Shown here one piece after another: positions 12,912 to 24,445 of a stretch of DNA of 26,155 nt. The DNA is from a virus, in the IMG/VR virus record IMGVR_UViG_3300005613_000362, positions 1-26,155 of that record. One strand, written 5' to 3'. The translations under genes and the position numbers were made by a program. A model generated the notes under the pieces. That model worked only from the letters and a program-made list of their open reading frames with translations. It searched no databases and was not told where the DNA came from. Position 1 is the stretch's first letter; every line of letters starts with the position of its first letter.

Positions 12912-13307
12912 ATGCTTGGTATTTTATCAACCATATTTGGAAGTAAAGACGTTATCAATAAGGGCTTAGAGTTAATTGATGAGTCATTCACTAGCGCAGA
13001 AGAAGTTGCTGAAAATAAGACAAAGCTAATTGAGGCTAAAACACAAGCTAAAGTTGACTTGCTTAATGCATACAAACCTTTTAAAATTGCGCAAAGATAC
13101 ATAGCGCTTGCATTTACCTTCATTTTCGTGTTTATTATGCTCAACGGTGTACTAGGTGCGATGTATGGTGTTATTGATGTTGCAAGTGTAGAGAAAGCCA
13201 AAGAGTTTGCTAACTCTATGTGGTTGGGCGAAATTATGCTTACTATAATTGGGTTTTATTTCGGTGGCGGATTCTTAGAGAGTAGAAATGTGGGAAAGCA
13301 GAAATGA
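12912..13307 (+). CDS. Holin, 3TM/GTA type
   Basis: 131 residues, ATG immediately after the previous stop. The first ~60 residues form an amphipathic and charged part (a helix with AEEVAENKTKLIEAKTQAKVDLLNAY), followed by 'KPFKIAQRYIAL', a transmembrane helix at ~62-85 and another at ~104-124 ending GFYFGGGFLESR. The K-P-x-x-x-x-R-Y segment before the first membrane helix and the GGGF ending match the 3TM holin / gene-transfer-agent holin family. Holins open the inner membrane at the end of infection so the lytic enzyme reaches the wall. It overlaps the next lysis gene by 4 bp (ATGA), supporting a shared role. Confidence 0.75.
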   Translation: MLGILSTIFGSKDVINKGLELIDESFTSAEEVAENKTKLIEAKTQAKVDLLNAYKPFKIAQRYIALAFTFIFVFIMLNGVLGAMYGVIDVASVEKAKEFANSMWLGEIMLTIIGFYFGGGFLESRNVGKQK

Positions 13308-13708
13308 GTGAGTTAAAGCTAGAGCGCCAAGAATTTACAGATAAGCAGACTATTGGCTCAATCTATATAGATGGCGATTTTATCTGTTATTCACTTGAAC
13401 GCCCATGGATTGATAACGCAGCAAACATTAGCTGTATTCCAGAAGGTATTTATGATTTAGAATACCATAGCTATAAAGGCAGGCTAGATACCTATGCGTT
13501 AATAGGTGAAACTGTTAGCCATTATCCAAGCGATAAAGCAAGAAATTTAATACTTATTCACCCAGCCAATAGAGTTGAAGAGCTGCATGGTTGCATTGCG
13601 ACTGGATCAGACAAAAAAGATGGTGATATGGTTATGAGTATCAAAGCCCATAAAAAACTAATGAATGCTGTAAAAAGCAAAAATATAACTAAAATTACAA
13701 TTTTGTAA
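13304..13708 (+). CDS. DUF5675-family protein, probable lysis enzyme
   Basis: 134 residues, ATGA overlap with the holin gene. The features are a beta-rich N-terminus, 'ICYSLERPWIDN', 'CIPEGIYDLEYHSYKG', and then IHPANRVEELHGCIATG. This is the pattern of DUF5675. His86 and the His95-Gly-Cys97-Ile segment resemble the catalytic His and (S/T)HGC core of L,D-transpeptidase (YkuD) domains, which cut or form bonds in peptidoglycan via a Cys thioester. Partner spacing differs from classical YkuD, so this is a fold-level inference. No signal peptide is visible, which fits release through the holin. No muramidase, amidase or transglycosylase is present in the cassette, so this protein is the best endolysin candidate in the window. 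Confidence 0.68.
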   Translation: MSELKLERQEFTDKQTIGSIYIDGDFICYSLERPWIDNAANISCIPEGIYDLEYHSYKGRLDTYALIGETVSHYPSDKARNLILIHPANRVEELHGCIATGSDKKDGDMVMSIKAHKKLMNAVKSKNITKITIL

Positions 13709-14215: not shown

Positions 14216-15382
14216 GTGAATTACGAAGAACTAAAAGAGTTTTGCAATACAAGCTCACAGTCTGATGTTATTGATGCTTTGGTTAAGCATGGATCGCAGA
14301 CAAACGCAGCAAAAGCTTTAAACAAGTCAAAAGGTACTATCTCAAACACATTAGAGCGCATTCGTAAAAACGCTGCTAAACGTGGTTGGTCGCCTGAATT
14401 TGATATGACCAAGAAAACAGCACCAGGCTTTGCGGTTAAAGGTACATCTACTTTATACGACAAGGAAGGTAAGCAGATCATACAATGGGTTAAGACTAAC
14501 GCAGAGCTTGAATCTAATATTGAGATTGCCAAGCAGGTTGTTGACATATTTAAAAGCGATCTGCCAGTTTATAAACCTTCTAAATTTGCAGAGAATAGTC
14601 TGTTAAATGATCAATTACTAAACAACTTTATCATTAGTGATTTCCATCTAGGTATGCTTGCTTGGGGTGAAGAAACAGGTGATGACTGGGATTTAGAGGT
14701 CGCAGAAGATCTATTGATTAAGTGGTTTGACAAAGCAATAGAGTCAAGTCCAAACGCAAGAAAGGCCGTGTTGACTAATCTAGGTGACTTCCTGCACTGG
14801 GATGGAATGGACGCTGTCACACCGTCAAGTGGTCACGTATTAGATGCAGATTCACGTTTTCAAAAACTGGTAAGAGTCGCTGTAAGGCTAATTAGATCAG
14901 TTATTGATAAGTTGCTAGTAACGCATGAAGAGGTGCATTGCATTATGGCTACTGGCAATCATGACTTGGCTAGTTCGGTTTGGTTACGAGAGATGATTGC
15001 TCACGTTTATGAAAATGAGCCTAGAATTACCGTAGACCTATCACCAGACGTTTATTATTGTGTTGAGCATGGTGACACAAGCTTATTCGTACACCACGGC
15101 CACAAGCGCAGAATTTCGAACATTAGTGACGTTATGGCTGGTAAGTTCCGTGAAGTATTTGGTCGTACTAAATTTAGTTATTGCCACACTGGGCATTTGC
15201 ATCATGCGGAACTAAAAGAAACCAATCTAATGGTCGTTGAGCAGCATAGAACATTGGCAGCTAAAGATGCATATGCAAGCCAGGGCGGTTATTTATCAGG
15301 GCGTGATGCGCAGGTTATAACGTACCACAAAGCGTACGGTGAAGTATCAAGATTGAAAATAAGCCCAGATATGGTGCTTTAA
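14216..15382 (+). CDS. HTH plus calcineurin-like metallophosphoesterase
   Basis: 388 residues from a GTG with AAGGTG 7 bp upstream. Residues ~15-55 are a winged-helix/HTH-like segment (SDVIDALVKHGSQTNAAKALNKSKGTISN), followed by a linker with 'GTSTLYDKEGKQIIQWVKT'. The second half holds all metal-binding motifs of calcineurin-type phosphoesterases: D142-x-H144, G190-D191-F-L-H-x-D-G197, G247-N-H-D250, H293-H-G-H296 and G326-H-L-H-H330. The arrangement is complete, so it is expected to bind two metals and cut phosphodiester or phosphoester bonds. I recognise the HTH/linker/phosphoesterase architecture from other podovirus-like phages and prophages, where the substrate is unknown. It sits alone between the lysis terminator and the replication promoter. 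Confidence 0.82.
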   Translation: MNYEELKEFCNTSSQSDVIDALVKHGSQTNAAKALNKSKGTISNTLERIRKNAAKRGWSPEFDMTKKTAPGFAVKGTSTLYDKEGKQIIQWVKTNAELESNIEIAKQVVDIFKSDLPVYKPSKFAENSLLNDQLLNNFIISDFHLGMLAWGEETGDDWDLEVAEDLLIKWFDKAIESSPNARKAVLTNLGDFLHWDGMDAVTPSSGHVLDADSRFQKLVRVAVRLIRSVIDKLLVTHEEVHCIMATGNHDLASSVWLREMIAHVYENEPRITVDLSPDVYYCVEHGDTSLFVHHGHKRRISNISDVMAGKFREVFGRTKFSYCHTGHLHHAELKETNLMVVEQHRTLAAKDAYASQGGYLSGRDAQVITYHKAYGEVSRLKISPDMVL

Positions 15383-15402: not shown

Positions 15403-15431
15403 TTGACGGAATAAAATTATAAAAGTATAAT
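15403..15431 (+). promoter_or_regulatory. Strong sigma70-type promoter upstream of replication genes
   Basis: The -35 box TTGACG (15403-15408), a 17-bp spacer and a perfect -10 box TATAAT (15426-15431) give an expected start near 15438. It lies directly after the phosphoesterase stop and reads into the structured leader and the O/P-like genes. An AT-rich spacer and AT-rich -10 flanks add support. I infer an early promoter comparable in role to lambda pR. Confidence 0.88.
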
Positions 15432-15437
15432 TTACTG

Positions 15438-15560
15438 CGCATTGAATAGAGTGACACCGAAGCAATGCCAAAAATGATTGAATTATCTAAGCCGTTATCG
15501 GTAAAGGGGAAAGCGTATCAATCCGCTTGTGTCACCCCCTTTACCAATAGCGGTTTTTTT
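15438..15560 (+). ncRNA. Structured leader RNA with terminator and crossing helix
   Basis: About 120 nt between the promoter and the initiator gene. A long stem pairs 15492-15509 with 15536-15553 (18 positions, one G-U and one mismatch) and is followed by seven Ts: a terminator. Inside its loop, AAGCG (15511-15515) can pair with CGCTT (15524-15528). A second long helix, GTGACAC (15451-15457) plus AAGC (15460-15463), pairs with GCTTGTGTCAC (15525-15535), i.e. 11 pairs with a 2-nt bulge; its 3' strand abuts the terminator's 3' arm without a gap. The two long helices cross (pseudoknot order), while the small loop hairpin and the second helix exclude each other at 15525-15528. Likely outcomes: a terminated ~120-nt RNA, or readthrough under some control. 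I know of no named family that fits. Confidence 0.6.
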
Positions 15561-15578
15561 ATACCTGGAGAAAAGTAA
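15465..15578 (+). CDS. Possible 37-residue leader peptide through the terminator
   Basis: An ATG at 15465 opens a frame of 37 codons, MPKMIELSKPLSVKGKAY followed by QSACVTPFTNSGFFIPGEK, ending in TAA at 15576-15578. Its stop overlaps the start of the initiator gene as TAATG, the same junction used by many gene pairs in this window. The frame covers both arms of the terminator. Ribosome-site support is weak (GAAG at 15459-15462, too close and poor). If translated, ribosomes would prevent the hairpin from forming and couple translation to the initiator gene. A 37-codon open frame is not rare by chance, so this is a candidate only. Confidence 0.3.
   Translation: MPKMIELSKPLSVKGKAYQSACVTPFTNSGFFIPGEK
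15492..15560 (+). terminator. Rho-independent terminator/attenuator before initiator gene
   Basis: The long stem CCGTTATCGGTAAAGGGG / CCCCTTTACCAATAGCGG (15492-15509 with 15536-15553) with T7 at 15554-15560. It is placed only ~60-120 nt after the promoter, so it can act as an attenuator for the replication genes and also stop late transcripts arriving from upstream. Confidence 0.75.
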
Positions 15579-16246
15579 TGAGTATGAAATTAATGGTTGA
15601 GGTCTTTAATGTTGACTTTGGCTCACCAATAAAGAAGTTAATCATGTTAAAGCTTGCGGATAATGCTGATGATAAAGGTATGTGCTTTCCATCGATGGCT
15701 CATATAGCTGAAAAATGTAATTGCTCAAGAAGTTCAGTGGTTAGAAATATTAATGCGTTAAAAGCCAGTGGTTACTTATCAATTCAGCAGAGGCAAAAGC
15801 CAGGCTCAAAAGAGAAGCAATCTAATATTTATACTATCAATTTAGGTGGTGTCACAGAGGCACTAGGTAGTAGCAGAGAGCTACAAGGTAGTAGCACAGT
15901 GACACTAGGGGGTAGTAGCACAGAGCTACAGGAATCTATCACTTCTTTTAACCTACCAATAAACAATAAGGCAAAAGCTAAAGCTTCTGCTGTTGAAAGG
16001 CCAGATGGTGTATCTAATCAAGTGTGGTTTGATTTTAACAAACAGCGTAAGGCAAAGCTGACACAGACAGCATTAAATGGAATTATCAAACAATCACAGT
16101 TAGCAGGGCTTTCATTAAACGAAGCATTAACAGAGTCAGTTGAGCGTGGTTGGCAAAGCTTTAAAGCGGAATGGGTAAGAAACAAGAATGTTCAGAAAGG
16201 CTTAATGCAAACATACGAAGAACGAATAAATGACATTGATTGGTAG
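15578..16246 (+). CDS. Lambda O-like replication initiator
   Basis: 222 residues with CTGGAG 7 bp before the ATG. Residues 1-90 form the HTH domain common to phage replication proteins: VFNVDFGSPIKKLIMLKLADNADDKGMCFPSM, then HIAEKCNCSRSSVVRNINALKASGYL and a wing with SNIYTINL. Residues 91-120 are a repetitive linker (GSSRELQ, GSSTVTLG, GSSTELQ) encoded by in-frame DNA repeats that are likely the replication origin. Residues ~145-205 hold W-x-x-F-x-x-x-R-x-AKLTQTAL ... GWQSFKAEWV, the usual C-terminal module of these proteins, which contacts the helicase loader. As with lambda O, the protein is expected to bind repeats inside its own gene, melt the DNA and recruit helicase via the downstream P-like protein. 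Confidence 0.83.
   Translation: MSMKLMVEVFNVDFGSPIKKLIMLKLADNADDKGMCFPSMAHIAEKCNCSRSSVVRNINALKASGYLSIQQRQKPGSKEKQSNIYTINLGGVTEALGSSRELQGSSTVTLGGSSTELQESITSFNLPINNKAKAKASAVERPDGVSNQVWFDFNKQRKAKLTQTALNGIIKQSQLAGLSLNEALTESVERGWQSFKAEWVRNKNVQKGLMQTYEERINDIDW
15848..15931 (+). repeat. Iteron-like repeats inside initiator gene, probable origin
   Basis: Four in-frame units of 18-24 bp: an imperfect one at 15848-15865 and three that start with GGTAGTAGCA at 15866, 15887 and 15911 (21- and 24-bp spacing, about two helical turns). Units at 15866 and 15911 also contain GTAGC-5-GCTAC dyads (15870-15884, 15915-15929). GTGTCAC (15849-15855) and GTGACAC (15899-15905) are additional copies of the heptamer pair seen in the upstream leader. 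An AT-rich stretch follows (about 15932-15985). Iterons within the linker region of the O gene next to an AT-rich segment are the lambda origin layout. Confidence 0.65.
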
Positions 16247-16255
16247 GTGATAACC

Positions 16256-16786
16256 ATGAAGCAAATTAAAGCGATTACAGGCGATTTAGTATCAAACCTT
16301 GCAAATGATACTAATATTGCAATAAAACAGCAGGAAGGGCATCAGGTTTTCGTTTCAGAGGCAAAAAAGCTTACTGATTCACTTACTCCTGACGTTAAAA
16401 GAATGTTCAATGATTATATTGAGCAATTATTTGCATTAAAACCAACTATCAAACGGCAGCTTAAAACTGACACAGAGGTTAGGGCTTATAAGCAGCAGTT
16501 TGTTTTAGCTTTATCTCAGGCAAAGATAGACACGCCACAGAAGCTTGAGATTGGCTTAAATTACGCCAGGCTTGATAGCAAGCATCCATTTGTAGATATT
16601 GGGTTGTTTGTTAGCTGGTGCAAAGAAGGCTACGCTCAGATGCTAAAAGAAGAGATGATGCAAGAGAATATGCAGCGCATTGAAGATCAAAAATTCATGC
16701 TTGGTGCTAAACCATTTGAAGAGCGTAAGGCTGAAGCTAAAGCGAATATAAATAGCTTGCGTAATATAATTAAACAAAATAAATGA
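16256..16786 (+). CDS. Lambda P-like helicase loader
   Basis: 176 residues from the ATG at 16256, with AGGTG 6 bp upstream; a GTG at 16247 would add three residues and lacks a good site. The protein is helical. The middle has LKTDTEVRAYKQQFVLALSQAKIDTPQKLEIGLNYARLDSKHPFVDIGLFVSWCKEG, the pattern of phage replication protein P: a helical domain, an 'A...HPF.P..G.FV.WC' segment and a charged C-terminal helix. P proteins bind host DnaB helicase, bring it to the O-bound origin and keep it inactive until loaded. Placement directly after the O-like gene supports the call. A near-consensus promoter follows 7 bp after the stop. Confidence 0.75.
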   Translation: MKQIKAITGDLVSNLANDTNIAIKQQEGHQVFVSEAKKLTDSLTPDVKRMFNDYIEQLFALKPTIKRQLKTDTEVRAYKQQFVLALSQAKIDTPQKLEIGLNYARLDSKHPFVDIGLFVSWCKEGYAQMLKEEMMQENMQRIEDQKFMLGAKPFEERKAEAKANINSLRNIIKQNK

Positions 16787-16793
16787 ATAAAAG

Positions 16794-16821
16794 TTGACAA
16801 AGAAAGAATAAATAGTATAAT
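16794..16821 (+). promoter_or_regulatory. Strong sigma70-type promoter for the long early operon
   Basis: Perfect -35 TTGACA (16794-16799), 16-bp A-rich spacer and perfect -10 TATAAT (16816-16821), start expected near 16828. The short leader carries AAGGGAG before the ATG at 16850. No terminator is seen between here and 24360, so this promoter can drive all genes from 16850 to 24111. Confidence 0.88.
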
Positions 16822-24268: not shown

Positions 24269-24295
24269 TTTACATATTCGTATAAATCATATAAT
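24269..24295 (+). promoter_or_regulatory. Probable promoter for small RNA
   Basis: -35 TTTACA (24269-24274) and perfect -10 TATAAT (24290-24295) with a short 15-bp spacer; a weaker -10 TAATAT at 24292-24297 gives 17 bp. Start expected near 24302. The suboptimal spacing suggests dependence on an activator, with the inverted repeat just upstream as a candidate site. Confidence 0.5.
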
Positions 24296-24301
24296 ATGAA
24301 C

Positions 24302-24391
24302 CTAGCTTTAATTAATTAGTGCTCTCTCTACTACACATATTAAGGCCTCCTTATGTTTTAGCCCCAAACGCTTATGCTGATGGGGTTTTTT
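24302..24391 (+). ncRNA. Candidate ~90-nt small RNA with anti-Shine-Dalgarno motif
   Basis: Between a promoter and a Rho-independent terminator, with no plausible gene. Two C/U-rich stretches stand out: CTCTCTCT (24322-24329) and CCTCCTTA (24346-24353). The latter equals the last eight bases of bacterial 16S rRNA (the anti-Shine-Dalgarno tail). TAAGG directly before it can pair with its CCTTA part to make a 5-bp hairpin with a 3-nt loop, which would partly hide it. CU-rich seeds plus terminator are common in sRNAs that block ribosome sites. Alternative: only a leader remnant ending at the early-operon terminator. Confidence 0.42.
24360..24391 (+). terminator. Rho-independent terminator before terminase promoter
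   Basis: Stem AGCCCCA (24360-24366) with TGGGGTT (24381-24387), a 14-nt loop that may form a small inner pair, and a run of six Ts (24386-24391). It closes the early operon and the candidate small RNA just before the terminase promoter. Confidence 0.8.
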
Positions 24392-24416
24392 AATGCCTAA
24401 AGAAAATGCATATAAA

Positions 24417-24445
24417 TTTACAAGTTATTGATTTTAAAGTATAAT
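24417..24445 (+). promoter_or_regulatory. Promoter for terminase/late genes
   Basis: -35 TTTACA (24417-24422), 17-bp spacer, perfect -10 TATAAT (24440-24445); start near 24452. A dyad CCAATA-7-TATTGG (24458-24476) lies at about +7 to +25, a position where a bound repressor would block transcription or the RNA would form a 5' hairpin. A ~100-nt leader without a good gene precedes terS. A strong sigma70 promoter directly before terS implies that terminase transcription need not wait for a phage-specific factor unless the dyad is an operator. Confidence 0.82.

Follow-up and report, generated by a model that had tools for sequence, protein, structure and literature searches.

In phage lambda, the Q-dependent late leader PR'-6S RNA-tR' comes from a promoter that makes a short leader ending at a terminator before an operon, and nut leaders have a comparable arrangement. 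In phage HK022, early transcripts begin with the structured put RNAs; these consist of two hairpins, act on terminators at a distance and have neither a double pseudoknot nor a built-in terminator. Type III toxin-antitoxin leaders (ToxIN) follow the order promoter, pseudoknot RNA, terminator and gene. To our knowledge, no kissing-loop or double-pseudoknot terminator has been described in the lambda late or nut leaders. Pausing in Q- and nut-dependent antitermination has been reviewed (PMC4496710), and pseudoknot control of plasmid initiators has been described for repZ of ColIb-P9 and repA of IncL/M plasmids (cited in PMC10724649), which are translational switches targeted by antisense RNA.

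We analyzed a 26 kb viral contig (IMGVR_UViG_3300005613_000362; 26,155 nucleotides, hereafter the window), whose genes lie on the + strand. An earlier note on this DNA had described a promoter-linked RNA of pseudoknot order at the entrance to the replication genes; the promoter, terminator and crossing helices present in the sequence support that description, and the O-like initiator gene does lie directly downstream, so that the predicted leader RNA sits between this gene and an exonuclease-like gene. The features of the locus are as follows.

14216-15382, + strand: phosphoesterase/exonuclease-like gene, the 5' neighbor of the promoter and leader RNA
15403-15431, + strand: sigma70-type promoter, TTGACG-17-TATAAT, 11 of 12 consensus matches
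15439-15468, + strand: P1, 5' hairpin GCAUUG/CAAUGC (arms 15439-15444/15463-15468) with an 18-nt loop; from the minimum free energy fold, with an equivalent in the class described below
15451-15457, + strand: PK1 5' strand GUGACAC within the P1 loop, pairing with 15529-15535
15460-15463, + strand: AAGC, a 4-bp extension of the crossing helix in the earlier note, pairing with 15525-15528 by sequence; an alternative to P4
15476-15481, + strand: PK2 5' strand GAUUGA in the linker, pairing with UCAAUC at 15518-15523; class equivalent with two-sided changes in 6 of 6 pairs (subtype 1)
15489-15498, + strand: P2 5' strand, 10 bp including a G-U pair, partner 15547-15556; fold and terminator scan
15499, + strand: 1x1 mismatch C15499.A15546 between P2 and P3; sequence and fold
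15500-15509, + strand: P3 5' strand, 10 bp, partner 15536-15545; fold
15511-15528, + strand: P4 hairpin AAGCG/CGCUU with loop UAUCAAUC; fold
15529-15535, + strand: PK1 3' strand GUGUCAC, located in the terminator loop immediately before the 3' arm; covariation of the corresponding helix in relatives
15536-15556, + strand: terminator 3' arm, P3 then P2; fold and terminator scan
15554-15560, + strand: T-run of seven T, the predicted RNA 3' end
15567-15570, + strand: Shine-Dalgarno GGAG of the O-like gene, from the sequence
15578-16246, + strand: O-like replication initiator gene (phrog_678, E 7e-34)
16247-16786, + strand: P-like helicase loader gene (phrog_109, Phage_lambda_P)

The locus thus resembles PR'-6S RNA-tR' in its order of promoter, short leader, terminator and operon, but differs from it in that the window RNA precedes O rather than late genes; no Q or N homologue and no qut or nut element was identified in the window. 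It shares with the HK022 put RNAs its place at the 5' end of a phage early transcript and is set apart from them by description through its double pseudoknot and built-in terminator. Like repZ and repA, it has an RNA pseudoknot ahead of a replication-initiator gene, whereas here the pseudoknot surrounds an intrinsic terminator.

Further elements lie elsewhere in the window. Within the O-like gene, four 15-bp imperfect palindromes of the GTAGCACAGAGCTAC type at 21-24 bp spacing (15849-15929) are probably the replication origin, resembling the lambda iterons; a DNA reading of the leader sites as O-binding iterons was rejected because the four clear iterons lie within O, and the leader site scored as an iteron ranked 53 in the window. 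Downstream, a perfect TTGACA-16-TATAAT promoter (16794-16821) separates the P-like gene from the small ORF that follows it, and a promoter-like site, a ~90-nt stretch and a terminator-like hairpin (GCCCCA..UGGGGUUUUUU) at 24269-24395 are followed by a second 11/12 promoter (24417-24445) 5' of the terminase genes. The elements before the terminase genes may form a late leader, in which no kissing pairing was seen by eye.

The consensus promoter reported ahead of the RNA was present, and its -10 box ends 7 nt before P1, a hairpin absent from the earlier list of elements. The claimed 18-position terminator stem (15492-15509/15536-15553) was likewise found, with 17 pairs and one mismatch, although the terminator is larger than first described, reaching 15489-15556 with 20 pairs and a T-run that overlaps and runs past the stem end. 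The fold of 15438-15562 is unusually stable (z = -4.7), with none of 200 shuffles as stable. When folding of the growing transcript was modeled, the terminator reached a probability of at least 0.94 once its 3' arm extended to 15542, and the crossing helix was dominant only near transcript ends 15535-15536. No antiterminator conformation, nor any upstream strand sequestering a terminator arm, was found in the window RNA by this folding. Since the terminator folds once its 3' arm has been made, there is no classical antiterminator switch here, and since the crossing strands lie clear of both terminator arms, the proposal of two mutually exclusive conformations was not borne out.

The 11-bp crossing helix was found as claimed, comprising 7 bp (15451-15457/15529-15535), a 2-nt bulge and 4 bp (15460-15463/15525-15528). 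Helices as strong between leader and loop occurred in 45 of 3000 dinucleotide shuffles and 20 of 3000 mononucleotide shuffles, and at 27 of 4296 places of the same geometry in the window. Because these three controls match its strength at p ~0.006-0.015 (~0.01), the assertion that chance pairing is unlikely is fair but mild for the helix by itself. The small hairpin described in the terminator loop (15511-15515/15524-15528) is present and excludes only the 4-bp part of the helix, as P4 does in the class model. A 7-bp kissing helix, PK1, together with the loop hairpin P4 is therefore a better description than one 11-bp helix. A second crossing helix, PK2, is missing from the earlier list. By approximate energy, the pseudoknot (~-38.6 kcal/mol, with a 9.6 kcal penalty) is close to the nested fold (-39.4 kcal/mol).

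To find related RNAs, loci were fetched via the O protein, the exonuclease and the coat and were scanned for a promoter followed by a terminator with a long stem and a large loop. Besides the window, the scan matched a leader that recurs directly ahead of O-like genes, in seven O-fetched loci (L017, L045, L066, L068, L069, L034 and L245, the source of the last being a bacterial MAG). In these loci the loop of the 5' hairpin can pair with part of the terminator loop, with sequences differing by locus, and in all except L034 the linker is complementary to the loop of a hairpin inside the terminator. A pattern scan for this design, here subtype 1, returned at least 120 viral-contig stretches, counts for this subtype being lower bounds; many contigs are fragments. 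In its layout, 5-8 nt separate the promoter from the 5' hairpin, an outer stem of 9-10 bp and an inner stem flank a 1x1 mismatch, a T-run follows, and two helices cross the terminator loop. Across 21 diverse sequences, the 43 pairs in seven helices were 95% paired, and two-sided changes occurred in 30 of the 43 compared to 9-14 in slid-partner controls (170 versus 12-34 two-sided cells), including all six PK2 pairs. PK1 is invariant in this alignment only because the search pattern fixed it; members found otherwise carry UUGACGG/CCGUCAA (L073), UGGGGA/UCCCCA (L006), UUGGUCG/CGACCAA (L355, L369) or AUUGCCC/GGGCAAU (L034), and UUGGCGG/CCGCCAA is a further PK1 sequence in the class.

Among 102 listed subtype-1 members, 77 have a -10 box with at least 5/6 matches before P1, most often at 5-8 nt, and 99 have a T-run; the geometry of 9-10 bp, 1x1 mismatch and 8-9 bp is found in 93 of those 99. 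The T-run ends 8-11 nt before an ATG in 77 of 93 listed cases, and one replication-initiator family, with DUF1376 in three tested, accounts for 54 of the 93 downstream proteins in the listed cases, other downstream genes being homing endonucleases and small ORFs, with no toxins. In phage ctTH923 (MW202544), whose coat is 43% identical to that of the window, a subtype-1 RNA marks the point where a leftward operon (ssb, exonuclease, erf) meets the rightward operon. Stricter filters, which give low estimates, found subtype 1 in 2 of 300 and 1 of 369 bacterial genomes, so it looks phage-borne rather than like a host riboswitch.

Some subtype-1 leaders have additional complementarities. In some of them, such as L335, L339 and L255, the terminator 3' arm and T-run are complementary to the ribosome binding site (RBS) region, a possible anti-P2 hairpin; RBS complementarity of at least 6 bp was found in 16 of 71 leaders (permutation mean 5, maximum 12) and could mask or expose the start site when the RNA is read through. 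No downstream anti-P2 hairpin is present in the window. At L110:2389-2510 and L319 near 1228 (- strand), a subtype-1 structure lacking a clear T-run has its stem abutting the start codon; in both, the 3' arm of the stem has a possible pairing partner further downstream.

A second subtype, seen first in L338 and L341, was fetched with an inner-stem pattern that left PK1 free and comprises ~20 sequences. Its crossing helix is 10 bp in nearly all and has at least nine different sequences. In 16 sequences, the six kissing-loop pairs were 100% paired, with two-sided changes in five of six, and the whole structure had 10 two-sided pairs compared to 0-2 in slid controls. Its layout of P1, P2, 1x1 mismatch, 10-bp P3, P4, PK1 strand and P3 resembles that of the window RNA. 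We link the two subtypes because the subtype-2 model matches subtype-1 RNAs, albeit weakly. Subtype 2 occupies the same map position as lambda PR'-tR', with early DNA-metabolism genes on one side and packaging genes on the other: in L376 it is flanked by a resolvase/methyltransferase region and by the terminase, portal, scaffold and coat genes, and the head genes of L376 and of the window belong to the same PHROG families (phrog_1216, 1328, 3927). Six of 20 subtype-2 records also contain a subtype-1 RNA, on the same strand and 3-5 kb away in L338, L341 and L390; two such RNAs in one contig have kissing sequences that differ. In L338, L341 and L370-L391, several subtype-2 RNAs are followed by a common stretch resembling GACCGTACTGATCGCGTTAG.

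The window RNA is a distant member of this large class of short phage RNAs, in which a 5' hairpin pairs with the loop of its own terminator. Its 7-nt promoter spacing falls within the modal 5-8 nt of the class, and its 10-bp outer stem, C.A mismatch, 10-bp inner stem and T-run fit the class layout of 9-11 bp, 1x1 and 8-10 bp. With the two partner regions fixed in advance from the class before shuffling, a PK1 of at least 7 bp has a chance of 1e-3, and PK1 of at least 7 bp together with PK2 of at least 6 bp a chance of 3e-5 (9e-4 with loose partners); the 6-bp PK2 alone has a chance of 0.03 and was sought only after the class had been seen, and all of these values are conditional on this RNA having already been singled out in the window. 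A blind descriptor scan over the collected loci ranked the window RNA among class members. The subtype-1 and subtype-2 covariance models scored it at 14.3 bits (E 0.05) and 12.2 bits (E 0.27), which by these rough E-values is below significance, yet both models scored no other place in the window higher. We regard a covariance-model match as a supporting rather than a defining criterion, because the class definition rests on architecture.

The window RNA departs from subtype 1 in that its T-run ends 17 nt before the ATG rather than 8-11 nt, it has no P5 and its P1 loop is larger. No sequence homologue was found in viral contigs, phages, plasmids or E. coli; two exact patterns gave zero matches, and blastn returned only terminator/RBS junctions or the O gene itself. 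A recurrent junction, TTTTTTATGCCTG(GAGAAAA), directly follows terminators in unrelated phages (L162:1000-1030, L163:1000-1030, L213:13180-13200). Neither phages with related coats (45-75% identical), nor the leader of the O-like gene of Acinetobacter phage BS46, nor the regions 3' of the exonuclease in the coat-related L212 and L213 contained such an RNA (subtype 1 in the case of the former phages). At the same map position (13140-13346), L213, whose portal is the closest to that of the window among those fetched, has an ordinary terminator, a TTGACG-17-TATAAT promoter and early genes. The compensatory changes anticipated in related phages are therefore found in the class, in both subtypes, but covariation within the window RNA itself is absent because it has no sequence homologue. 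We consider it probable that the window RNA belongs to the class by architecture, not by sequence, although convergence on the same design could also give this result.

The earlier suggestion that the RNA class is undescribed agrees with our searches: none of the 4227 families of Rfam 15 matched the window RNA or either subtype at the gathering threshold, the sole match being a tRNA elsewhere in L375, and no description of such a class was found in the open-licence literature. The kissing-loop terminator class is thus apparently undescribed.

On balance, we favor the reading that the window RNA (~15437-15560) is an operon-leader kissing-loop terminator that most likely acts in cis as an attenuator. 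The leader would be transcribed from its own promoter, the 5' hairpin loop would pair with the strand inside its own terminator loop (PK1), and the linker would pair with the loop of the terminator's internal hairpin (PK2). The resulting double pseudoknot would fold compactly about a strong intrinsic terminator, which ends 17 nt upstream of the O-like start codon. Transcription from the leader promoter, and any entering from upstream late genes, would stop here by default, and the replication genes would be read only when the terminator is bypassed via a factor or polymerase state that the folded leader recruits or reports. The promoter, the fold, the covariation in the class and the position at operon entrances are supported by sequence and comparison; default termination, regulated read-through and a regulator are what we infer from them. 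Since the PK1 3' strand is made just before the terminator 3' arm, the 5' hairpin could dock while polymerase is at the terminator. The leader is thus a candidate for binding an antitermination factor or for affecting termination directly.

The main rival, which we consider unlikely, is a free small RNA with host or phage targets in trans, for which the terminator merely ends the RNA and the downstream gene is expressed by read-through or from upstream. The complete promoter-RNA-terminator unit, the strongly conserved subtype-1 core, the usual lack of a start codon right after the subtype-2 T-run and the contig with two such RNAs of different kissing sequences would all suit a free RNA. However, it would not need the subtype-1 T-run to abut the RBS, nor the structure to be kept before a gene without a clear T-run, as in L110, L319 and L256, and since the kissing strands covary mutually, their sequence is free and unlikely to recognize a fixed target. 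Less probable still is an ordinary strong terminator that closes the late operon at the end of the exonuclease gene, with an early promoter just upstream and crossing helices by chance. The mild significance of the 11-bp helix alone and the lack of sequence homologues fit such a terminator, but following an early promoter it would cut off that promoter's own genes, PK1 and PK2 fall in their predicted places, and the layout recurs with covariation in many phages.

It is improbable that the leader is a plasmid-type replication-control pseudoknot (repZ/RNAI) or a unit like type III toxin-antitoxin systems, in which the terminator would set the ratio of RNA to mRNA. A pseudoknot RNA ahead of a replication initiator and the ToxIN-like order of promoter, RNA, terminator and gene speak for this, as does the subtype-1 loop UUGGCG, which we take to resemble the loop motif of plasmid replication-control RNAs. 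Against it, there is no evident antisense partner, none of the plasmid-control or ToxI families in Rfam matched, repeats are absent, and the genes downstream are initiators, homing endonucleases and small ORFs in place of toxins. We see hardly any prospect for a 37-aa leader peptide (15465-15578) coupled to O via TAATG: although this is an open frame whose stop codon shares bases with the O start, it has no Shine-Dalgarno, its codon usage ranks lower than in any of 201 in-frame gene pieces and is like that of non-coding frames, and tblastn, pattern and profile searches found no homologues. On these grounds the ORF was rejected as a real gene.

For the class as a whole, we tentatively suggest that these RNAs may gate the timing of phage transcription, with docking, alone or with a factor, deciding between termination and entry to an operon, that of replication for subtype 1 and that of the late genes for subtype 2. 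Where one phage has both leaders, their differing kissing sequences would keep them from interfering with each other. A covarying RNA class that is common in environmental phages and absent from Rfam 15 stands at the entrances to replication and late operons, and its covariance models can be used to annotate phage leaders that so far carry no annotation. If termination is controlled, which could be tested in a reporter plasmid without the phage, these RNAs would represent a new way of timing phage gene expression, in which a terminator is tied to the 5' end of its own transcript.
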